The notes under the pieces are model-generated. The model searched no databases, had not been told where the DNA came from, and saw only the letters and a list, made by a program, of their open reading frames with translations. From Ruminiclostridium josui JCM 17888 (lineage in GTDB: Bacteria > Bacillota > Clostridia > Acetivibrionales > DSM-1351), in the NCBI RefSeq assembly GCF_000526495.1, contig NZ_JAGE01000002.1:806001-870000 (forward strand): a DNA stretch of 64,000 nucleotides. Reading direction: 5' to 3'. Each line of letters starts with the position of its first letter. The first letter of the stretch is position 1. This document shows, in pieces, positions 48,490 through 64,000 of the stretch. The position numbers and the translations under genes are program-made.

Positions 48490-49198
48490 TATCTACTACC
48501 TCCAGCTTGGAAATCAATCCATTGATGTCATTCATGAATTTTGGTATAACAATGTTATTTTTCTGTTCTACAGTAACACGCTTTTTATATTGTATAAGTC
48601 CGCTTACTACGTTACTGTTCTTTATTGCAGAGTATAATTTACCAGGATCACCAATAGCCTTTATTTCAAAAGGAACTGCATACCTGTTTTTATTTATTTT
48701 TATGGTAGGGCCTGTGCAAATCTGCTCACTAGTTGCAATAAGCCTTTCATCATTTATTGCTATGGCCTGTGCTCCGGCAACTCTCAAATCATTTATAATA
48801 CCATAAATCTCGTAATCGTGAATTATATAATTCATTTGACTTTCGGGGTCAGGATTTTCTGCATCATTTAAGGTTATAACTATACCATCCCCGGTCACAT
48901 CCGTTAATCCTGATATAAATTTAAGGTAATCCAGCTCACTTTTCAAGCTGTTACTAGAATTCGTTCCTGGAGAAGCTTTTAGAAAATCTTCCTTTTTTTG
49001 TTCCAGTTCTGCTATCTGTGCCTTATACTGCTCTCCTTCTTTAACTCTTGTATCCAGTTGACTTTTTAACCTGTTATAATCAAGTGTAAGAGCAGATTGT
49101 TTTTGCATGCTAACTGTACTTCTTATCTGTACTGTAACTAGCATACCCAAAATGGCAAATATGATAAATAGAATAATAAAATTGTCTTTTACCTTCAT
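48467..49198 (-). CDS. DUF881 family protein, first copy
   Basis: 243 residues with the same plan as its neighbour: membrane helix (~7-25), coiled coil (~35-75), then GDGIVITLNDAENPDPESQM and INDLRVAGAQAIAINDERLI. Tandem DUF881 genes of similar length suggest paralogues acting together at the membrane. First gene of this unit; the promoter must be in 49199-49310. Confidence 0.9.
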   Translation of the reverse strand: MKVKDNFIILFIIFAILGMLVTVQIRSTVSMQKQSALTLDYNRLKSQLDTRVKEGEQYKAQIAELEQKKEDFLKASPGTNSSNSLKSELDYLKFISGLTDVTGDGIVITLNDAENPDPESQMNYIIHDYEIYGIINDLRVAGAQAIAINDERLIATSEQICTGPTIKINKNRYAVPFEIKAIGDPGKLYSAIKNSNVVSGLIQYKKRVTVEQKNNIVIPKFMNDINGLISKLEVVDNENKKEK

Positions 49199-49312
49199 TA
49201 TAGCCTCTTTTGTATACTTATTATTTCTCCTTGGTTTCCTATTATATAATTTTACTTTTTATAAACAGTTTTTTCAAGGAAAAACATTTTTACTTATTTT
49301 TTAAGTTTTTCA

Positions 49313-49342
49313 TTGACAAAATTATATAGTCTATTGTATACT
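49313..49342 (+). promoter_or_regulatory. promoter of tRNA-Trp
   Basis: TTGACA, 18 bases, TATACT; the expected start is a few bases before the tRNA at 49355. Confidence 0.75.
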
Positions 49343-49354
49343 AATATTCGTCTT

Positions 49355-49430
49355 AGGGGAGTAGCGCAATTGGTAGAGTAGCGGTCTCCAAAACCGTCGG
49401 CTGCGGGTTCAAGTCCTGTCTCCCCTGCCA
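49355..49430 (+). tRNA. tRNA-Trp (anticodon CCA)
   Basis: Acceptor arms AGGGGAG and CTCCCCT pair fully, then G and encoded CCA. D-loop has TTGGTAGAG, T-arm GCGGGTTCAAGTCCTGTC. The anticodon loop CTCCAAA sits on CGGT/ACCG, giving anticodon CCA. An accessory region begins right after it, and tRNA 3' ends are common integration sites. Confidence 0.96.
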
Positions 49431-49469
49431 AAGAAAAGCTTAGAGCCATAATGGTTCTAGGCTTTTCTT
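49431..49469 (+). terminator. terminator after tRNA-Trp
   Basis: AAGAAAAGC...TTAGAGCC pairs with GGTTCTAG...GCTTTTCTT around a short loop, starting immediately after the CCA end. Confidence 0.85.
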
Positions 49470-49501
49470 ATGTTTAATAATCAGTTAACATAATTTTTTA
49501 T

Positions 49502-49520
49502 GGGTACTATTTGGGTACTA
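49502..49520. repeat. tandem GGGTACTA direct repeat
   Basis: GGGTACTA occurs twice, 11 bases apart. Repeated GGTAC(T/C) words of this kind are often seen at the 3' end of tyrosine integrase genes next to tRNA genes; on the minus strand a short open tail (…STQIVPI…) crosses it. Possible integrase or attachment-site scar; weak. Confidence 0.35.
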
Positions 49521-49607
49521 ACCATATTTTTGACGAACTCAAACCGCCTCACATTTGCAAAGTTACTGCCTTATTTTGTTTTAGTCCCCATCATAATTTT
49601 AGCTGTA

Positions 49608-49943
49608 TCATTGTAATATATGGGGAATATTTCCTATATCACGATAACAATTTGAAATCATAGTCCACACGGATTTATAGCCTGTTCTTAAACCCGGTAA
49701 TACACCAATCAGGATCCCAAAAAACAAAATTGCATATGTTATAACCAGCCAGAGGAATAAGTAGCTTTTGAGTTTTTCAGGTTTATCTGTCGCGAACTCT
49801 TTTTCTATAATCTCCTTGACCTTGGCATTCAAATAAGCCTTGTGTATTGCATCGAGTAAGGAATATACTGCATCATTTGGTATGGTACTGTTTAAGCTGT
49901 TCCTGATAGAAATTATAAATTGTTCCTGTCCAGCTAGCCATAG
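49608..49943 (-). pseudogene. 5'-truncated membrane protein gene
   Basis: The frame is open from a stop at 49944-49946 to a stop at 49608. The only plausible start, a TTG at 49832 with AAGG upstream, gives 74 residues with one membrane helix (FLWLVITYAILFFGILIG) after a basic N-terminus. But coding-like sequence (AGQEQFIISIRNSLNSTIP and onward) continues upstream in the same frame without a start, suggesting the 5' end is lost. Family not recognised. Confidence 0.45.
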
Positions 49944-50030
49944 TTACCTATACATCAAAAACAAACATAAATCCTCTTGATTTGTGGTAAGTATCGAAAC
50001 GGATAGAATATCACTAATCTTTTAAAATAA

Positions 50031-50053
50031 GGAAGCAGAATTGATCTGCTTCC
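50031..50053 (-). terminator. terminator after the HTH gene
   Basis: GGAAGCAGA and TCTGCTTCC form a 9-bp stem with a 5-base loop, followed on the minus strand by TTATTTT, 11 bases past the HTH stop. Confidence 0.82.
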
Positions 50054-50064
50054 TAGTTGATAAA

Positions 50065-50448
50065 TTAAGCTATTTTTATAACATCATCTTGACGGAATAA
50101 CAAGTCAGCACTCATATTGAACTTTTTACATATAGTGGACACTTCAGTTATCATGAACCCGGATCCATAGTCGCGATTTTCTTTGTGCCTATATGTACTC
50201 GCCGGCATTGATAATAACTTAGCCATTTCAGCTTGAGTTATTCCATTCATTATTCTGACTATCTTTAAGATAAAAAACCCTTTGCGATTCAATTTACTAA
50301 GCTTTGATAAAATACTATTTCCTATTTCAGTAGCTTTATTCTTTGTAAGCACTAACTCACTTTCTTCTCCATGGCATATTGGAATACAGATCTTTACTTG
50401 CGAACCATTGCAATCTAGTCTTTCGGTATTATATATTTTAACATTCAT
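50065..50448 (-). CDS. XRE-type helix-turn-helix regulator
   Basis: 127 residues. The C-terminal half is an HTH_3 domain: IMNGITQAEMAKLLSMPAST, then STICKKFNMSADLLF. The N-terminal ~55 residues are not recognised. Transcribed in the same direction as the excisionase-like set upstream; likely a regulator of the integrated element. Terminator follows. Confidence 0.75.
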   Translation of the reverse strand: MNVKIYNTERLDCNGSQVKICIPICHGEESELVLTKNKATEIGNSILSKLSKLNRKGFFILKIVRIMNGITQAEMAKLLSMPASTYRHKENRDYGSGFMITEVSTICKKFNMSADLLFRQDDVIKIA

Positions 50449-50555
50449 GACATAAGCCTCCTATTTATATTGCTAATTTCTAAAAGTTGCGAAATCTCCA
50501 TTATTAACTGACTTATGCTTTTGTGGATTGATTATCTCATCTTTTGTAATAAACT

Positions 50556-50840
50556 CTACTTTTTCATGGAATTTAAAATAGATTGTATTTCAAAACCATC
50601 AACGATACCTTGCTTATATGCTTCCATTTCATAAACATGAATAGTTTTATCTAGAGCAGCTTCATACTTGTATACTAAGTCTTTATACTCTTTATTATGC
50701 TTTCGTGGTATAAGTTTTTCGATTGAAGTTAGTGCTTTATTTGAAAGTTCAGATGCAGCATGATATTCCTCGTATTGCAGCACACTGCTTGATTCAACTA
50801 TTTCACGGGTTCGTGATTGAACTACACTTTCTTTTAACAT
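50556..50840 (-). CDS. hypothetical helical protein of the element
   Basis: Start ATG at 50840 six bases after AAGGAGG, giving 94 residues; helical, charged, no membrane segment or known motif. It overlaps the 3' end of the 58-codon gene upstream by 38 bases, so translation is probably coupled. Family not recognised. Confidence 0.6.
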   Translation of the reverse strand: MLKESVVQSRTREIVESSSVLQYEEYHAASELSNKALTSIEKLIPRKHNKEYKDLVYKYEAALDKTIHVYEMEAYKQGIVDGFEIQSILNSMKK

Positions 50841-50979
50841 AGACATCCTCCTTCTTTTTTACCCTTGAAGGAAGCTCAAGAAATGATATAATGATATTGA
50901 GCTTATCCTTAAGGGATGGTTCGGCGATAGCTCCTGCTGACTTTGGACGGTTGTAGGGGCTATCATTGCTTTTATTCAT
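50803..50979 (-). CDS. hypothetical 58-residue protein
   Basis: Start ATG at 50979 behind GAAGGTG; product begins MNKSNDSPYNRPKSAGAI, basic and partly disordered. Overlaps the excisionase-like stop by 8 bases and the next gene by 38. Coupling to both neighbours argues that it is translated, but nothing about function can be read. Confidence 0.5.
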   Translation of the reverse strand: MNKSNDSPYNRPKSAGAIAEPSLKDKLNIIISFLELPSRVKKKEDVYVKRKCSSITNP

Positions 50980-51157
50980 TTTTTTCACCTTCAATAAACA
51001 ATATTAAATCCTCTTTAAGTATCCTGTAATCTCTTCCAGGCTTAAATGCTTTTAATTTTCCTGCATGTATTGCTCTCTGAATAGTTAGATTACTGACCTG
51101 TAAAAATTCAGCAACTTGCTTTAGTGTTAATATATCAGGTAGTTTTTCATAACCCAA
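50972..51157 (-). CDS. excisionase-like HTH DNA-binding protein
   Basis: 61 residues forming a single MerR/HTH_17-type winged helix: ILTLKQVAEFLQVSNLTIQR, then AGKLKAFKPGRDYRILKEDL. This is the pattern of helix-turn-helix excisionases and small phage regulators. Starts with TTG at 51157 after AAAAGGA. First gene of a three-gene minus-strand set; a phased TATCAT array lies just upstream, a likely binding site (inference). Confidence 0.8.
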   Translation of the reverse strand: MGYEKLPDILTLKQVAEFLQVSNLTIQRAIHAGKLKAFKPGRDYRILKEDLILFIEGEKNE

Positions 51158-51185
51158 GTCCTTTTCACCACCTTTTCCAATTTTG

Positions 51186-51232
51186 ATATCATTTTATATC
51201 ATATATTATCATTAGTCAATATATATTATCAT
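51186..51232. repeat. 10-bp-phased TATCAT array
   Basis: (A/T)TATCAT occurs at 51186, 51196, 51206 and 51226: spacings 10, 10 and 20 bp, i.e. one DNA turn, with one position skipped. It lies 29-75 bases upstream of the excisionase-like gene. Helically phased direct repeats suit cooperative binding by a small HTH protein. Confidence 0.6.
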
Positions 51233-51326
51233 ATACTAGCAATTCATAGAAACAAATATCTATATACTTTAGCAGAATAGACTTATAACTTCAACATTTG
51301 ATTCATTGTTAAATCCACACATATTC

Positions 51327-51355
51327 TTATATTACCGAACGGTTCGGTAATATAA
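51327..51355. repeat. perfect dyad 1 (14-bp arms)
   Basis: Left arm TTATATTACCGAAC, centre G, right arm its exact complement. Core half-site TTACCGAAC. Confidence 0.85.
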
Positions 51356-51388
51356 TTTGATTGCCCAAATTGCAGGTTATAAGCTCCA

Positions 51389-51408
51389 TTACCAAATATA
51401 TTTGGTAA
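51389..51408. repeat. perfect dyad 2
   Basis: TTACCAAATA followed by its exact complement, no unpaired centre. Half-site TTACCAAAT. Confidence 0.85.
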
Positions 51409-51435
51409 ATATACAGAATGCAACACCATAAACAT

Positions 51436-51456
51436 GTTGCCGAAAATTTCGGCAAC
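51436..51456. repeat. perfect dyad 3
   Basis: GTTGCCGAAA, centre A, exact complement. Half-site TTGCCGAAA. Confidence 0.85.
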
Positions 51457-51560
51457 TTAACTACTGGGTTTTTTGGAAAGAATTAAGTTGACATTTGATA
51501 GTCTTAGAATTTTTTAAATTTGAATACAATAGGTAACACTAATATTTGAGCTTATAAGTA

Positions 51561-51583
51561 TGTTGTGAAAAATTTTCACAACA
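51561..51583. repeat. perfect dyad 4
   Basis: TGTTGTGAAAA, centre A, exact complement. Half-site TTGTGAAAA, resembling the Rex redox-repressor operator (TTGTGAA...TTCACAA). Confidence 0.85.
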
Positions 51584-51600
51584 ATAAAAGAATGAAACTG

Positions 51601-51629
51601 CAGTTTGCCTAATGCATTTTTGCAAACTG
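51601..51629. repeat. stem-loop 5
   Basis: CAGTTTGC and GCAAACTG with a 13-base loop. Different layout from the other dyads. Confidence 0.65.
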
Positions 51630-51682
51630 TATTGACGGTTGAATTTATCTGTAATATTACCATACCATTCAGTGATATTAAT

Positions 51683-51705
51683 GGTTGTCAAAAGTTTTGA
51701 CAACC
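51683..51705. repeat. perfect dyad 6
   Basis: GGTTGTCAAAA, centre G, exact complement. Half-site TTGTCAAAA. Confidence 0.85.
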
Positions 51706-52115
51706 TATGACGTAAGAATTTATTTCAAAGATAATAAGTAATCATTCCACGAGATAATGCTGTATAGCCCTGTCATAAATGCTACACTATCAAAGCACCG
51801 CTTGGATCCTTGAAGTTTATTAAAACCTCTTAAGATTATTTATAGTGTGTGAAATTGCATATTGTATAGTTGATGGGACTGTAAACAGCCTGAGTGGAAT
51901 GGCATATATCAAAGATCATTCAGATTTTCAGAATTGATTAAGGCTTGATATAAAATTAAAGCAAGAATTCTCGGCTGTATAACGGAAATAATCCTTCCTT
52001 GACAAATTTGTGTTTTTTAATTCATAGGTTTTCAAGTGGTTTATGTCAAATTATTGTTAACCATATTTACACAATATCTTAAACGCACCCGGAAAACACA
52101 TGGTTTATATTATAT

Positions 52116-53030
52116 TTACTTATCATTCAACCTTGCAAGACCTGTATGGAAGTCTGTTAAACTTCTTTCTTTATACTCCTTATAAAAAAGTTGATTATAG
52201 TTATCCGGAATAAAATATGTACTGTTTTCATATGAAGAACCATATTTAAATGCTACACTTCCTAAAAGTAATAGCTTATTTGTATCTATTTTGTACCGAA
52301 ATATCCCTTTGTATGGGGTCACTCCGAGATTCAGATAAAGATATCGCGATAATAAATTATACATGAAATGCTTTTTTGAATCTTCGTTCATACTTTTCCA
52401 TTTAGCAAAAGATTGTTCATCTGAAATATTAAAATAAATCTCACTTTTTTCCAAATTGTCTATGAAGGTTATATCAAAAAGTAATTCATTTGTTGGAGTG
52501 ACAAAGACGGTATTGTTTATTTTTAGTGAGTCCAGCCAACGGCATAAATGATTACGAAGCATGCCCTCCCATTCATATCCGTCACTAAAAGTCTTATAAT
52601 AAAATGACTTATTTGCTTCAATGTTAGTTCTAAAATCATTTATTGCTATAGAGTCTTTGTCATCATCAAGTAAATTTGCATTTTTGAAAAAAATCCAAAT
52701 ATCCGGCTTTGCATATAATTTGCTGAGTTCAGATGCCAATATAAACTCTTCCTGGGTTCCAGAGGAATATTTTCCGGTGGGTGTACCCCATTTTCGCCAC
52801 AGGAGCATTAAGAATAGATCACACTCCAATATACTTTTATTTATTAATTCTTGAGGCCGTCCTTTACCCGGCAATGTATCTTCCCAACCCAATGGCTCAA
52901 TATGGTATCCCATAGAGTGTCCTTTAATTTCATTAACTTCGTCAATTACTTTTAAAAATATCTTTCTTTCCTCATTTAAATCATTCGGCGATGCTATAAA
53001 AACACGTAGTACTGTGTATTTTAATGTCAT
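52116..53030 (-). CDS. DUF4062 (TIR-like) domain protein
   Basis: 304 residues. The N-terminal ~150 residues match DUF4062, a TIR-related fold found at the front of many defence and signalling proteins: LRVFIASPNDLNEERKIFL at 8-26, LGWEDTLPGKGRPQELINKS, CDLFLMLLWRKWGTPTGKYS and GTQEEFILASEL. The C-terminal half is not recognised and has no NTPase motif, so this is not a full STAND protein. First gene right of the dyad region; the next gene upstream on the same strand is 230 bases away. Defence role is inference. Confidence 0.75.
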   Translation of the reverse strand: MTLKYTVLRVFIASPNDLNEERKIFLKVIDEVNEIKGHSMGYHIEPLGWEDTLPGKGRPQELINKSILECDLFLMLLWRKWGTPTGKYSSGTQEEFILASELSKLYAKPDIWIFFKNANLLDDDKDSIAINDFRTNIEANKSFYYKTFSDGYEWEGMLRNHLCRWLDSLKINNTVFVTPTNELLFDITFIDNLEKSEIYFNISDEQSFAKWKSMNEDSKKHFMYNLLSRYLYLNLGVTPYKGIFRYKIDTNKLLLLGSVAFKYGSSYENSTYFIPDNYNQLFYKEYKERSLTDFHTGLARLNDK

Positions 53031-53260
53031 ATGTCTCTCCTCAAATATTTTTCCTTAAAATATTATTAAAACAAGGCTATTAAAAACTTGTGGCTCAGCA
53101 TACATTCATATACATTTAAAGTAATTCATCACTAAAATTTAATACCCAGAATTCTTATGCCTCTGCTATGCCCCACATAGCGTTATTATTCGAAATTTCT
53201 AACCTTAACACTGCATATAAGTAATTACATTCAAGTATTCCTTGAAAACGACGTATATTA

Positions 53261-54100
53261 TTAATAAAAGGACTGAAATCTGCAAAGCAAATTATGTGTA
53301 TTTAAAATCACCAATTGGAACCTAAATATCGCCTCATCAATAGAAGGCAATCCCGGATGACATCCTTGTGGATGGAGCCTATTCCACAATCCTTGGATAT
53401 AACCTTTATTATCCCCTGTCCATTCATTTAGATTTATATCAAGTATTGGCTTAAAGCATTTTACTAAAACCTGCATTGCTGTTGGAGTATTTGCTGGAAC
53501 AATGCTTGCAATATTACTGTTTGAAGTCTCCTTATTTTTTATGAATTGAGCCATTTCTACAAATAAACTTTCAGTATAGGTTCTTAATTGGCTGTTTAAT
53601 GCCGCATAATTTGCTCCCAAATAGCTTCCCTTAGCTTGTTCATAATGACCTTTTGTTGTAGCGAATCCATAGATATTGAGAATGTCAATAATAGAATCTT
53701 CTTTATTCGAAATTTCAAAATCTTCCGGTAATTTTCGTATTAATTTATTGTTTTCGATGTCAATATCGTAACCGTCAAATCTTAAATATTTGTACAAATT
53801 AGGATATTTATCAAAACATATACTTTCTGTGCTATAGAAATTATAACAACTGTAATTTGATAATAAATAGGATATTCGGTCCTCAACAATAAGAGTTACA
53901 ATATCATTCTTATAATTATCCCGAATACCTTGATTTTGAACAAGGAATTTTGCTATTGCTACTTTTTTCTTTTTTATAGAATCCGCAGGTGCCAGAACTA
54001 TCTTATCATCCAAATCATACTTCAAAAGATACATGTCTAAAGACGCGTGATCTTCTGGCATTGACATTACAATATCAGTTATAACTTGTTTTGAAAACAT
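53261..54100 (-). CDS. unknown protein with HEPN/abortive-infection-like C-terminal half
   Basis: 279 residues, start behind GGGGG. I do not recognise the N-terminal half. The C-terminal half has a helical pattern YEQAKGSYLGANYAALNSQL followed by RTYTESLF, then LWNRLHPQGCHPGLPSIDEA and a final helix IFRFQLVILNTHNLLCRF. The A-x(n)-Y-x-G-x-Y-x-A-x(n)-R-x(n)-E pattern and the H-P-G turn resemble HEPN and Abi C-terminal domains (inference). No catalytic R-x4-H is certain. Sits between the DUF4062 and DUF2971-like genes, same strand. Confidence 0.6.
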   Translation of the reverse strand: MFSKQVITDIVMSMPEDHASLDMYLLKYDLDDKIVLAPADSIKKKKVAIAKFLVQNQGIRDNYKNDIVTLIVEDRISYLLSNYSCYNFYSTESICFDKYPNLYKYLRFDGYDIDIENNKLIRKLPEDFEISNKEDSIIDILNIYGFATTKGHYEQAKGSYLGANYAALNSQLRTYTESLFVEMAQFIKNKETSNSNIASIVPANTPTAMQVLVKCFKPILDINLNEWTGDNKGYIQGLWNRLHPQGCHPGLPSIDEAIFRFQLVILNTHNLLCRFQSFY

Positions 54101-54140
54101 AATAGCCCCCGTTTAATTTATAAATTATTTTAGTACTTAA

Positions 54141-54764
54141 TTATTTCACTATAGGCGTAATCGCTGTAATACCAGCTATATTTTCGAGTATATGTTTGCC
54201 AGCTTTATCCATGAATTCTTTGTAGGATTTACTGGTTCCTAATAAGACGTATACGGATTTTAAATCAAAATCAAAGTTTCCTTTAACCCTCCACTCTCTT
54301 TCATGAGACCAATCTATAATATTTTCTTTGTCATCTAAATTATATGACACTATACGCCACCATTCCTCTTTTGGCAAAATTCCTTCAGCAATTTCAGGTT
54401 TTTCATAGAATACAGGCCTTCCTCCTTTTTTGAACACGTTTCTTTTTAAGAAAATAAGCCCGTCTGAGGAATATCGTGTTTTACCCCCTAGTTCTTCTCG
54501 AAATTCCTTTTCATGCAATATATTTTGCCCAATACCATAGATGGGAGCATCTTGAAAACAGACAGCAGTGTGCCCCCCACGAATATACCCCCTAACATCA
54601 CTTCCAATTATTTGTTTATCATTTAATATTTTTAGCAACACATCTACTGAACTTAGTATACTTCCATCGTCTTGTAATTGTTCCCTTGTTAAATGTGTAA
54701 GTGTTGCTGTTATATCTGATCGGTTTAAAAATCTTTTTGACCATTTGTCATAATCATAACCCAT
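54141..54764 (-). CDS. DUF2971 / AbiGi-like protein
   Basis: 207 residues from an ATG at 54764 (GGAGG five bases upstream; ATG at 54776 overlaps that site). Pattern: LTHLTREQLQDDGSILSSVD, then LLKILNDKQIIGSDVRG, AVCFQDAPIYGIG, GRPVFYEKPEIAEGILPKEE and the acidic motif DWSHEREWRVKG. These blocks recall DUF2971 and AbiGi-type proteins, some of which have an ADP-ribosyltransferase-like fold (inference). 40 bases upstream of the HEPN-like gene, so probably one operon. Confidence 0.6.
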   Translation of the reverse strand: MGYDYDKWSKRFLNRSDITATLTHLTREQLQDDGSILSSVDVLLKILNDKQIIGSDVRGYIRGGHTAVCFQDAPIYGIGQNILHEKEFREELGGKTRYSSDGLIFLKRNVFKKGGRPVFYEKPEIAEGILPKEEWWRIVSYNLDDKENIIDWSHEREWRVKGNFDFDLKSVYVLLGTSKSYKEFMDKAGKHILENIAGITAITPIVK

Positions 54765-54938
54765 AGTATCCTCCATATAAACCCCTTATATAGTTATTTA
54801 TTCTTCATTCATACATAATTTTCCTTTTTAAAAATAGACATTTTCACAGCTAAAACCAAAAAGTTCGATCTTGAGCATTACTTTTCACTCTCTCAACGTC
54901 GACTACCGCATCACTAGGGCCTAATTAAATTTGTGGAG

Positions 54939-54957
54939 TTTTGCAAATTTTGCAAAA
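54939..54957. repeat. perfect dyad 7
   Basis: TTTTGCAAA, centre T, exact complement. Same 9-1-9 layout as the 51-kb dyads, but a more divergent half-site. Confidence 0.75.
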
Positions 54958-54989
54958 GTATTTTCAATCAACCAAACTGATTGGTAGAG

Positions 54990-55299
54990 TTACAGGCAGT
55001 AATCATCTGAGTCTCCAGAAGTGTACCGTATAATCTCAACTGGATTTCAGCTGCCACCTTCTCCAATGACAGCAGATTTAATAGGCTTGTCCAACAGTTC
55101 TAGTTCCCGAACCATTTTCTGAGGTTCAGCAATCAATTTCGAGATCCTTCTTGTCTAAATATTCAGTTCTGATATTTTTATCCATAAGGGCTTCAATTTT
55201 CTGTTTAAACTGGCTAATTATATTTTCGATCTAGTCCTTCAGATCCTCATTTTCATCTCCTACAACGAATAAAAGTGATGGCTGAAGCTTTTCTGCATT
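54990..55299 (-). pseudogene. decayed gene of the element
   Basis: Coding-like minus-strand sequence with two in-frame stops and one frameshift. Readable pieces: NAEKLQPSLLFVVGDENEDL, IENIISQFKQKIEALMDKN, RTEYLDKKDLE, then shifted LIAEPQKMVRELELLDKPI, KSAVIGEGG and NPVEIIRYTSGDSDDYCL before a stop. Original identity unknown; the element has lost genes here. Confidence 0.55.
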
Positions 55300-55302
55300 A
55301 AT

Positions 55303-55329
55303 TATATTGTCAAAATTTTTGACGATATA
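55303..55329. repeat. dyad 8 (one mismatch) near a promoter
   Basis: Core TTGTCAAAA, centre T, TTTTGACGA, with arms extended by TATA. One wobble position breaks perfect symmetry. Same half-site as dyad 6. Ends 29 bases upstream of the -35 box at 55359. Confidence 0.75.
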
Positions 55330-55358
55330 TCAGTAATCAATAGTCATGCAATTAATAG

Positions 55359-55387
55359 TTGACAATATTATCCAATTGTTATATTAT
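55359..55387 (+). promoter_or_regulatory. promoter of the small-ORF / sce7726 unit
   Basis: TTGACA, 17 bases, TATTAT on the plus strand, about 100 bases before the 55-codon frame. Dyad 8 lies just upstream, a possible control site. Confidence 0.65.
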
Positions 55388-55490
55388 TAAAGTGTAGGTC
55401 AGATTACATAGAATATGTTTTCTGGCCTTTTTATATCCTTCTGTGGACCTCTATTACATACGCATTTATTATTGAAAGGGGTCTGATACA

Positions 55491-55658
55491 ATGAGAGACA
55501 AAATGTCATTATCTTATATTTGGTATCCTGAGCAGTATTTTATGGTAAGGAGGATTATTGAATCTGCAGGCTTTAATCCAATCATACTTGATGAGTTAAT
55601 TGAGCTTTATGTGAATCGTGAAAGGACATATTTTGAATATTATAATTCAAAGAGGTAA
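55491..55658 (+). CDS. 55-residue hypothetical protein
   Basis: ATG at 55491, ten bases after AAAGGGG; the product begins MRDKMSLSYIWYPEQYFMVR and ends in a helix with repeated aromatic residues (RTYFEYYNSKR). It has a good promoter and a ribosome site, and lies upstream of the sce7726-like gene in the same orientation. Family not recognised; could be a leader peptide, antitoxin or regulator. Confidence 0.5.
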   Translation: MRDKMSLSYIWYPEQYFMVRRIIESAGFNPIILDELIELYVNRERTYFEYYNSKR

Positions 55659-55790
55659 TTAAATACTTATCCTCTGCAGCGTATGTCAGAGGAAATACAT
55701 AGATTCGAACTGAAACAGTTATTTTTAAAGAATCAATATCATTTAATTGTCTAAATTGATTGTAAGTTGCGGTGAAATTGGGAATGTATA

Positions 55791-55814
55791 TTGTTATAAT
55801 GTTAAGTATAACAA
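55791..55814. promoter_or_regulatory. inverted repeat before the sce7726-like gene
   Basis: TTGTTATA and TATAACAA, 8-bp arms, 8-base spacer, 20 bases upstream of the ATG. It contains TATAAT, so it may be an operator over a second promoter, although no -35 at the right distance is clear. Confidence 0.45.
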
Positions 55815-55834
55815 TGGGTGACAAGGGGTAAATC

Positions 55835-56683
55835 ATGGAGGAACTACTAAGCATACTTGAAAGCAAATATAGCCTTATTGAATTACAAAAAATTGCTACA
55901 AAGCTAGACAAGACATTCCGCCTAAATAGCTTTTGGAATGGCTGGCTAGAATTGGAACAAGTATTTTACAATGTCAATTTAAATATAAATGATCTTAAGT
56001 CAAAATATCTCTATAGAGATATTTATAATGCTATTATTATGAAATACGGAAAAACCGAAAGGATTGTCAAATATTATTTAACTAAAGAATTTATCAATAA
56101 TGATAATGAAGTATGCTTATATGAATTTAATGTTGGTAATAGTAGATTAGATTTCGGAAGAATTAATGGCAGATCATACGCATATGAAATCAAAACTGAA
56201 TTAGACAATACAAATAGGCTATTGGATCAGTTATCCGACTATATTAATGTATTTGAATTCATAAATGTTGTTATACACGAAAAGCATTTATCAAAAATTA
56301 AATCTCTCATCCCCAGGAATGTGGGTATAATCCAATATACATTCAACGAAAATGGAATGGCTTTTGATTCAATCAGAAAGCCTAAAGAAAATAAAAACAT
56401 GAAAAAGTTAAGTCAGCTAGAAATTATGAATACAGACGACCTAGACTATATAATTAAAAAAATAATTAATGTTAGTCAAGTTCCAAGGTTTAAGTCTGAG
56501 AAACTTAAGTTTGTAAATAAGCATTTTAATAAATACCAATTTAACGATGTATTTAAGGAAGCTATAAAAAATAAACAGTCAAAAAAATGGAAGCATATCA
56601 AAGATAATTTTGATATGCTTAAACCCATTGAATTACAAGACGCCTATATTTATGAATATGATATTAAACAATTGAATTGCTAA
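55835..56683 (+). CDS. sce7726-family protein, PD-(D/E)XK nuclease-like
   Basis: 282 residues, ATG six bases after AAGGGG. The central block YEFNVGNSRLDFGRINGRSY, then AYEIKTELDNTNRLLDQLSD, matches the sce7726 family and a PD-(D/E)XK nuclease core: Asp106 and the E-x-K motif (Glu118, Lys120), with Glu97 as a further acid. The N-terminal ~90 residues are helical. Its last 20 bases overlap the end of the sce7725-like gene on the opposite strand. Nuclease activity is inferred from the motif; the family function is not known to me. Confidence 0.75.
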   Translation: MEELLSILESKYSLIELQKIATKLDKTFRLNSFWNGWLELEQVFYNVNLNINDLKSKYLYRDIYNAIIMKYGKTERIVKYYLTKEFINNDNEVCLYEFNVGNSRLDFGRINGRSYAYEIKTELDNTNRLLDQLSDYINVFEFINVVIHEKHLSKIKSLIPRNVGIIQYTFNENGMAFDSIRKPKENKNMKKLSQLEIMNTDDLDYIIKKIINVSQVPRFKSEKLKFVNKHFNKYQFNDVFKEAIKNKQSKKWKHIKDNFDMLKPIELQDAYIYEYDIKQLNC

Positions 56684-57725
56684 TCTTATAGTCCATTGTA
56701 TCAATAAAATGACTTATTGTTACAGTCTTCCATTTTGTTGGATTATTTGGATTTTCAATTCTGCCATTAAAATTATTAATTATTGAACAGCCATTACACG
56801 AAGTTTTATGTTTTGGTGTCAATTTATTATTCCAGTGATCCGATTTTAGATATTTGACTAAGAGATCAGTCTCGTATGAATTTGGATCCTTCTCTATTCC
56901 CCTAAAGCCATGATGTACAAAAGTATCCATTTCAATTGTCAGATATGCAGGATAAGAGACACCTCCACTGTATATTGGGTTAGTTCTTATACCTGCCGTA
57001 TCACCAAAATAATTAAAGTATTTTTTAAAATCATCATAGTAGTCAAAATCTATACATTCGTAAGCAACATCATTTATTCTGATATCTCTATTAGGAAGCT
57101 TTGGGAAAGTCAATTCAGAATATATTTGTTTAATTACAATGGATTTAAATCCTTTTTGTACTTGAAATGACTGGATTTTCTTTACTTCTCTCGATATAGA
57201 TGCTTTTTCAAAGCTAAAGTTCTCTAAATTATAAATAAGAAAATCTTTTTTCCCAATTAAATTGAAAAGTTCTGCTTCTATTGTTGCCAGCTTCTTCACC
57301 TCAACCATATAAGCTATTCTGCTTGATATATTTGAGAGTGATTTTTTTAGATCAGCTAAATCCCCAGCCTTGTAATTATCAAGATTTACTTCAATTACAG
57401 GTATAACATTCGTATATTTTGCAAATCTAATTAATATATCTCTATGGAAGTTCCTATTTGAATTAATATTTTTATAAAAGGCTTCAACAGGCTTTTTTAA
57501 TTTTTTATGTGACAGATTTAGATTTCTTGGGATCGTTATAAAAAAATCGTTATCAGGTTTCGATTTAATTAGTTCTTCGATATCATCAATTATACTTGCT
57601 TTTCCCTTCTCTTTCTTAATATCCTTAACTATTCGGATAAGCGGCATTACATTGTCACTAAAGAATTGATGAGACAGTGCATTGAGCTCCCCATCTAAGC
57701 TCATTAATGCAGGTACATACTTCAT
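56664..57725 (-). CDS. sce7725 / T4 beta-protein-family protein
   Basis: 353 residues. The N-terminus MKYVPALMSLDGELNALSHQ, then VMPLIRIVKD, follows the beta-protein pattern (Y-x-P-x(n)-GE-x-x-AL, then PLI-x-I). Middle: IAYMVEVKKLATIEAELFN; C-terminal CNGC near residue 310 could bind metal. The partner sce7726 gene is convergent and overlapping by 20 bases; the two families are named together, and this tail-to-tail pair supports joint function (inference). Confidence 0.7.
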   Translation of the reverse strand: MKYVPALMSLDGELNALSHQFFSDNVMPLIRIVKDIKKEKGKASIIDDIEELIKSKPDNDFFITIPRNLNLSHKKLKKPVEAFYKNINSNRNFHRDILIRFAKYTNVIPVIEVNLDNYKAGDLADLKKSLSNISSRIAYMVEVKKLATIEAELFNLIGKKDFLIYNLENFSFEKASISREVKKIQSFQVQKGFKSIVIKQIYSELTFPKLPNRDIRINDVAYECIDFDYYDDFKKYFNYFGDTAGIRTNPIYSGGVSYPAYLTIEMDTFVHHGFRGIEKDPNSYETDLLVKYLKSDHWNNKLTPKHKTSCNGCSIINNFNGRIENPNNPTKWKTVTISHFIDTMDYKISNSIV

Positions 57726-63215: not shown

Positions 63216-64000
63216 TTACATTCTTTTTCTGGTAGCAGCGTCAAGCTCATCATCATCGAGAATGCTAGTTTGCTGATTTAAGAAACTTATGTTGCTCTGT
63301 ATTTCTGGATTTATCCTAATACCTATCCACCGAGTACCATACCTACTATGCTTTTTTTCAAAACCCTTATCCTTGAGTGCTTTAGCAAACTCATTCGAAC
63401 TTCGTCGATACTCATTGTTTTCCTGACACCATTTGTCATATGTAGAAAATAATTTACTTCCGGATTCTTCGAATTGATCAAGGTCACAACAGTCACAAAT
63501 AAATCTGCTCAGCCAGTCCTCTCCTGCAGCATAATCTTCCGTTGATTGTTTTACTGCAGTTGGTATTTGTATGTGATAATTATTTTTGATATATGCCGTG
63601 GCTCCTTCAATAATCCATGAAAGGATAGCATCAGCATCGGCGTTGTATAGTACTCCGGCAAAATCTTTAATCTGCCTTTTACCTTGTATGTTCGCCCTGA
63701 AAGGTACTACCATTATTCGCCTCCAAGTTCCAGTATCGTTACTGCCTACTTTAGGTAAATGGTTTGTTGAAAGAATAAGTGTATGTGATGGTAAAAAAGA
63801 ACGCTCCTTTTGGTACAACTCACGGCCGGTAATTGGATCCGAACTAGCCAGCCTCTTCAACATTGCTCCTGACAGTCTACGTCCTTCTTCTGTCTCAAAA
63901 GCAGTGACAAAGCGTTTCCCTTCAATTGATGTAATACCAACCGGCTGTTTACCGTCTCGCTGACTCATTAATACTTCCGGATTGATTTCACCTGCATAAG
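63216..64000 (-). CDS. phage/plasmid primase-helicase, P4/D5 family, 5' part outside window
   Basis: The frame stays open to the window edge (the ATG at 63968 is internal; upstream residues YAGEINPEVL continue the protein). Matches the C-terminal SF3 helicase region of P4-type primases: ETEEGRRLSGAMLKRLASSD, PITGRELYQKERSFLPSHTL, ILSTNHLPKVGSNDTGTWRR (sensor region), then a D5_N-like winged-helix tail. These proteins start replication in satellites, phages and integrative elements. The Walker A part would be upstream, outside the window. Confidence 0.9.
   Translation of the reverse strand, partial: YAGEINPEVLMSQRDGKQPVGITSIEGKRFVTAFETEEGRRLSGAMLKRLASSDPITGRELYQKERSFLPSHTLILSTNHLPKVGSNDTGTWRRIMVVPFRANIQGKRQIKDFAGVLYNADADAILSWIIEGATAYIKNNYHIQIPTAVKQSTEDYAAGEDWLSRFICDCCDLDQFEESGSKLFSTYDKWCQENNEYRRSSNEFAKALKDKGFEKKHSRYGTRWIGIRINPEIQSNISFLNQQTSILDDDELDAATRKRM

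Follow-up and report, generated by a model that had tools for sequence, protein, structure and literature searches.

In phage operator clusters of the lambda OL/OR type, the operators of one repressor share one sequence. Some phage replication origins lie inside the initiator gene, as in lambda O and SPP1 gene 38. Clustering is normal for centromeres. As for the individual centromere sites, the available text of one study describes the members of parS families as 16-bp palindromes, most of them perfect, which resemble one another but are each specific to a replicon and are not bound by non-cognate ParB (PMC5450999). Palindromes with symmetric, replicon-specific variation are also what we observed in the array of dyads analysed here. 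The original prediction, made from the letters of this DNA, held that no named element has this look. This was not quite right, since perfect palindromes whose bases vary with the replicon predominate in parS families, in the accessible part of that study (PMC5450999). Judging from sequence comparisons, the dyads of the array are probably docking sites for phage-type DNA-binding proteins.

The dyad array and its host element

The array lies in a 958-bp intergenic region (51158..52115, no strand assigned) between an excisionase-like gene and a DUF4062 gene. All positions refer to the window, that is, the whole stretch of 64,000 nucleotides that was analysed. Zero ORFs of at least 60 aa were found between 51157 and 52116, in agreement with the claim that the array is gene-free. 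All five perfect dyads named in the original prediction were confirmed at their positions, and none of them is assigned a strand. D1 (51327..51355) is a perfect 29-bp dyad with arms of 14, one central base and the half-site TTACCGAAC. D2 (51389..51408) is a perfect 20-bp dyad with arms of 10, an even centre without a central base and the half-site TTACCAAAT. D3 (51436..51456) is perfect over 21 bp, with arms of 10 and one central base (GTTGCCGAAA-A-TTTCGGCAAC). D4 (51561..51583) and D5 (51683..51705) are both perfect over 23 bp, with arms of 11 and one central base; the inner 19 bp of D4 read TTGTGAAAAATTTTCACAA, and the half-site of D5 is GTTGTCAAAA. All five are complementary up to the very centre. 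The half-sites and the pattern TTRYSRAAN matched the sequence as they had been read, and the description of the dyads as mostly having one unpaired central base holds for four of the five. The exception, D2, is even-centred, so its spacing is off by one base. Among the odd dyads (D1, D3, D4 and D5), the half-sites differ at 6 of 10 mirrored columns. Shuffling the arms of these four dyads within the array allows 24 arrangements only, which limits the power of such a test to 1/24.

Compared with shuffled sequence, the dyads were far above chance. Thirty first-order Markov shuffles of the window gave an expectation of 0.27 dyads with arms of at least 10 per 64 kb; seven were observed in the whole window, five of them within the 379 bases of the array. 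Local shuffling of 51200-52110 (arms of at least 9, n = 2000) yielded no dyad in 1934 cases, one in 65 and two in 1, compared with the five observed. The array was also the sole place with at least three dyads (arms of at least 10) within 400 bp in 1,198,084 bases, a set made up of the window and the fetched loci (169 sequences, partly overlapping, copies of the array locus excluded). Relaxing the threshold to arms of at least 8 in the same 1,198,084 bases added one extra place, locus L073. A scan of the 4.47-Mb own genome for the 19-mer TTRYSRAANNNTTYSRYAA pointed the same way: all four exact matches (4/4) belong to the array. When one mismatch was tolerated, the own genome gave 37 matches and the reversed control 66; with up to two mismatches, the window gave 6, where 5.7 were expected. 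The loose motif is thus not enriched, the enrichment being limited to perfect, clustered dyads. The perfect dyads are a property of the array locus and do not represent a regulon spread over the genome.

No orthologous copy of the array was found. Used as a similarity query against phages and plasmids, the array returned no match, and neither did a scan of viral contigs with the pair-spacing pattern and the D1 pattern. The fetched parts of the sister tRNA-Trp elements of four genomes (G009, G007, G004 and G008) held no comparable array. The dyads do not form iteron-type direct repeats, direct-repeat copies at the dyads being only 68-76% identical to the reference. Searching 60 relatives with the array region returned mainly a 113-bp dispersed repeat rather than the dyads. 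By its distribution, this sequence (51978-52090 in the window) is a dispersed short repeat: it recurs at 96% in a prophage region of G002, where it adjoins a gene that looks holin-like by eye, G009 has it at 91%, and G006 has five copies.

The array belongs to an integrative element of approximately 19.2 kb. The element is bounded by a duplication of the 3' part of a tRNA-Trp gene (49355-49430) together with its flank; attL lies at 49386..49466 on the + strand, and the duplicate, attR, at G000:C2:874548-874628. The excisionase-like gene encodes an HTH_17 protein of 61 aa (50972..51157, - strand) whose start codon is 170 bp from D1, so that the array occupies the stretch 170-550 bp upstream of this start. 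A gene for a 127-aa protein (50065..50448, - strand) has the same orientation; its match to HTH_3, of repressor-like type, is weak. At its far end the element encodes a tyrosine integrase and an Xre repressor, and the window also holds the C-terminal part of a D5-type primase/helicase (63216..63968, - strand), the complete gene of which (810 aa) is at L009:216-2648. DUF4062, Beta-protein and nuclease-like genes are among the cargo, and eight further ORFs of the element had no Pfam match. The cargo at 52116-57725 has a defence-like appearance, with a DUF4062 protein (PADLOC PDC-S60), a cll match and a member of the Beta_protein family. The integrase of the element (L009:3922-5340) carries an HTH_26/HTH_3-like domain at residues 143-196, between its SAM-like and catalytic domains. 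Just inside both ends of the element, at 49502-49520 in the window and at L009:5402-5420, we observed the tandem repeat GGGTACTATTTGGGTACTA; these repeats are possibly integrase arm sites.

Dyads inside PHROG_1733 genes

The search with the motif was blind to gene families, and it reached the PHROG_1733 family repeatedly. In 39 relatives there were 48 exact matches to the 19-mer outside the own genome, only 5 of which were fully symmetric; four of these five loci were fetched, and two of the five (G036 = L051 and G016 = L063) proved to be in family genes. Scanning GTDB contigs with GTTGYSRAAANTTTYSRCAAC gave 46 stretches, three of them (L115, L093 and L084) in or beside family genes or fragments, and the viral contigs gave four stretches, one of them (L066) in or beside a family gene or fragment. 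Because L115 equals L063 and L132 equals L051 within the domain, these loci are not independent. The remaining matches in GTDB contigs were mostly isolated dyads, several with flanks that look terminator-like by eye.

PHROG_1733, a helix-turn-helix (HTH) with a coiled coil and no assigned function, was matched by all nine members scanned (9/9), while Pfam gave similarity to UPF0137 and DUF3102 at sub-threshold level only. The L051 domain was matched in 190 of 50,697 phage records (174 from Streptococcus phages including a satellite, 10 from Bacillus, 3 from Faecalibacterium, 2 unnamed and 1 from Staphylococcus), in 11 of 72,556 plasmid records and in 6 of 291 genomes of the class, the own remnant counted. 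Genes for replication or recombination are found close to several of the homologs. An AimR/AimP pair precedes the PHROG_1733 gene in L165, a replicon of Bacillus velezensis. The accessible portions of the literature on dyads in phage genes, on origins, on partition and on satellites contained no description of dyads inside PHROG_1733 genes.

In several of the motif matches, the dyad lies within one phage gene, immediately behind the helix-turn-helix, where its translation reads, for instance, YIVKNFHNI or YVAKNFGNI. We compared the dyads with synonymous-codon permutations in a set of genes that was not picked for dyads. Of 50 family loci, 21 were dropped for sharing their best dyad with another locus and one for stop codons, leaving 28 rows that represent 27 distinct genes, one row being a duplicate. 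The permutation gave p <= 0.01 in 10 rows and p <= 0.05 in 12, and the other 16 of the 28 had no significant dyad. The dyad followed the HTH in 10 of the 12 significant rows and preceded it in L152 and L155. The Cetobacterium members beside ParA had no dyad at the usual place. From these codon comparisons, the in-gene dyad reads as a nucleic-acid feature in part of the family.

The in-gene dyads vary yet stay symmetric, as seen in TATATTGTGAAAAATTTTCACAATATA (L051), TATGTTCGGAAAAATTTTCCGAACATA (L126) and ACCGTTGTCGCACAATGCGACAACGGT (L152, where a loop of three bases separates the arms). A set of 20 members, related to one another and picked because they show a dyad, had 90% of its positions paired, compared with 59% after the arms had been shuffled between members (0 of 2000 shuffles). 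Since this set was selected and its members are related, the permutation test and the following comparison of SPbeta-type genes weigh more. Four SPbeta-type genes have 44-46 of 48 residues identical on the N-terminal side and 90-107 of 106-109 on the C-terminal side up to residue 200, but merely 15-24 of 42-44 in the cassette formed by the HTH and the dyad. Their dyads differ as well, for example TTTGATTGTCGGAAATTCCGACAATCAAA in L145 vs TTGATTGTGACAAATTGTCACAATCAA in L165; three are perfect over arms of at least 9 bp and the fourth has one mismatch. By eye, the phage Lugh and the fecal phage L155 show the same co-change of HTH and dyad on a smaller scale. Covariation of the arms between related genes is thus present in the class that we propose, PHROG_1733 cognate dyads. 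As the HTH and the dyad change together between near-identical flanks, the dyad may be regarded as the cognate double-stranded site of the protein, and the co-change favours such a recognition site over a hairpin. Some features are compatible with a hairpin, namely AAA-type loops in Streptococcus members (L146) and a wobble pair in L073 and L149. In L132 (12 kb) and L145 (6.4 kb), no dyad or hairpin (loop 0-5, arms of at least 8) was found besides the in-gene one.

The window dyads resemble the in-gene dyads, and the element itself retains a trace of the family. A decayed PHROG_1733-type gene fragment (55258..55329, - strand; YIVKNFDNIINAEKLQPSLLFVV), found by two queries, contains D6 (55304..55328, - strand), a near-perfect dyad with 12-bp arms and one mismatch. 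The element thus holds a dyad of the same kind within the remains of a PHROG_1733-type gene; by motif match alone, D6 is within chance. The inner 19 bp of D4 are identical to the in-gene dyad of the prophage gene L051 (= L132), and D4 was absent from the 60 motif-scan loci. D5 shares its half-site with the dyad inside the gene of L063 (= L115, L128); this half-site occurs in 7 of the 60 motif-scan loci, once in a gene (L115) and six times outside the family. The arms of D3 also occur in 7 of the 60: in L084 and L093, which are family fragments from Clostridiaceae UBA7994, in a free cluster of Gemmiger (L073), and as isolated dyads outside the family in L070, L082, L090 and L110. Because the arms of D3 and D5 are also found outside the family, their matches alone say little. 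For D1 and D2, we found no in-gene counterpart. We first considered that the gene fragments might start right at the dyad, but dropped this view, as the homology in L093 already sets in several codons before it.

Two other loci have free dyads in numbers. In L084, three perfect free dyads lie beside the gene fragment, and the genome of this locus has two PHROG_1733 homolog matches. The array of Gemmiger formicilis (L073:5727-5963) is flanked by an Xre gene and a Zeta-like gene, with an integrase nearby. It has four perfect dyads (arms of at least 8), six hairpins by script and eight dyads or hairpins by eye, one of which is D3; another dyad of this locus has the half-site GTTGTCCAA of the fecal phage gene L155. 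A search of the Gemmiger genome with a single query of Faecalibacterium type detected no PHROG_1733 homolog, and the Gemmiger array, used as a similarity query, matched nothing among phages and plasmids.

Candidate sites for phage proteins and competing readings

The reading that we prefer, with a probability of roughly 0.48, is that D1-D5 are free-standing double-stranded sites of mixed specificity for homodimeric PHROG_1733-class HTH proteins. The original prediction had offered a choice between dimeric DNA-binding proteins with related specificities and structured DNA or RNA. The co-change of HTH and dyad in the family speaks for the former, and for structured RNA there was no match in Rfam. 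In the mechanism that we propose, the phage PHROG_1733 gene, which often carries a single dyad in its own reading frame, beside the HTH codons, exchanges the HTH and the dyad as one unit, so that protein and site stay matched. The element of the window holds a decayed piece of such a gene (the one with D6) and, upstream of the excisionase-like operon, what would be five sites of different specificity. From the sequence comparisons we infer that the PHROG_1733 protein binds the dyad. No intact PHROG_1733-class protein was found in the own genome, and the presumed ligand is therefore external or lost; proteins of resident or incoming phages may bind the window sites in trans. The effect would be control or titration, most simply of the transcription of the xis-like operon or of the phage protein itself. 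The cluster could be cast as a sensor, decoy, centromere or relic.

Should the preferred reading hold, a dyad cluster without explanation becomes tied to a family of phage and plasmid DNA-binding proteins, and that family gains a candidate site, namely the palindrome within the gene. If a protein has its cognate site in its coding sequence and both are swapped as a cassette, changes in DNA-binding specificity can be studied in a clean natural setting.

The best-placed alternative, less likely but with a fair share of the probability, is a parS-like centromere cluster. The dyads would be, or would once have been, the partition site of the element or a plasmid-like forerunner, and the cognate protein at the ParB position would since have decayed to the fragment at 55.3 kb. 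PHROG_1733 homologs lie directly downstream of ParA in L168, L169 and L172, from Cetobacterium and Fusobacteria ZRK30 plasmids, an arrangement counted in two distinct Fusobacteria plasmids. The family phrog_12047, 'ParB-like partition nuclease', was matched over residues 122-251 by two SPbeta-type members, L145 (3e-9) and L165 (9e-10). The other four of the six members scanned had no phrog_12047 match, and Pfam reported a ParB domain in none of eight PHROG_1733-type proteins. Given the adjacency to ParA and the ParB-like matches, the proteins of the family may bind centromeres in the manner of ParB and serve phages as regulators. Replicon-specific palindromes are, besides, the known look of parS families, as far as the available text goes (PMC5450999). 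However, Pfam showed no ParA in the 20 distinct ORFs that were scanned from the element, a centromere would not be expected to combine five specificities in a single cluster, and most of the homologs found are phage-borne.

A more specific proposal within the preferred reading, itself rather doubtful, assigns the cluster a purpose. It would be a library of non-self phage sites, kept by an element that has itself lost the protein, with one perfect site for each of several phage lineages beside the excision operon; through whichever phage protein turns up, it would sense infection and lead to excision, or else titrate that protein. Under this proposal, the Gemmiger array would be a second case, and mixed-specificity arrays would be a means for an integrative island to recognise several phages.

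It seems improbable that the array works as a series of short hairpins in RNA or single-stranded DNA (a transcript, a single-strand origin or a packaging signal), where pairing is all that is selected. RNA folding of the two strands yielded z-scores of -5.95 for one and -5.11 for the other, the hairpins seen by eye in L073 have AAA loops and one G-U pair, and covariation within the array would be natural for hairpins. On the other hand, the complementarity of all five dyads reaches the very centre, more than a hairpin requires, and they keep conserved TT and AA positions. The co-change of HTH and dyad in the SPbeta-type genes is a signature of DNA binding. Over 49000-54000, Rfam (E <= 1) reported only the tRNA, leaving the array without a family match, and at L073 none of its five matches reached the gathering score. 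Quite improbable, too, is the idea that each dyad is a functionless remnant of a PHROG_1733 gene or of recombination at such genes. Gene fragments that bear dyads do exist in the window (D6), in L084 and in L093, but the five dyads are free of mismatches and none has recognisable gene remains alongside; searching the window for remains of PHROG_1733 genes found the fragment at 55.3 kb only, with nothing beside D1-D5. Least probable of all are operators for the element's own HTH_17, HTH_3 or Xre repressor, independent of PHROG_1733: the position upstream of the HTH_17 start would suit them, but one repressor should bind one sequence, the odd-dyad half-sites differ as widely as described above, and the listed dyads include none of this kind ahead of the Xre repressor.

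Comparison with known systems

The array and the lambda-type OL/OR clusters both have a number of dyads in front of an early or excision gene; unlike the operators in the lambda-type clusters, the window dyads do not share one sequence. The origins within initiator genes would resemble the PHROG_1733 family in that the gene of a DNA-binding protein contains its own site, so that specificity and site travel together, and in the location of several homologs near replication or recombination genes. They differ in that PHROG_1733 genes have one dyad each and no iterons, and the two S. thermophilus phages examined carry separate annotated replication genes.

The likeness to type I parS (chromosomal parS and the Bsr parS of Burkholderiales) extends to mostly perfect palindromes, a similar base pattern and dimeric HTH binders, as described in the accessible text (PMC5450999). 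In addition, some PHROG_1733 members adjoin ParA, and the C-terminal part of two members resembles a ParB-like family. By contrast, the window dyads are longer (19-29 bp vs 16), have an A/T centre and mostly an odd central base; no ParA was found in the element, five variants share one cluster, and the site of the phage PHROG_1733 genes is often inside the gene. Owing to the differences in length, centre, ParA and mixed variants, we do not file the array as parS. By analogy, replicon-specific parS is nonetheless the closest known look.
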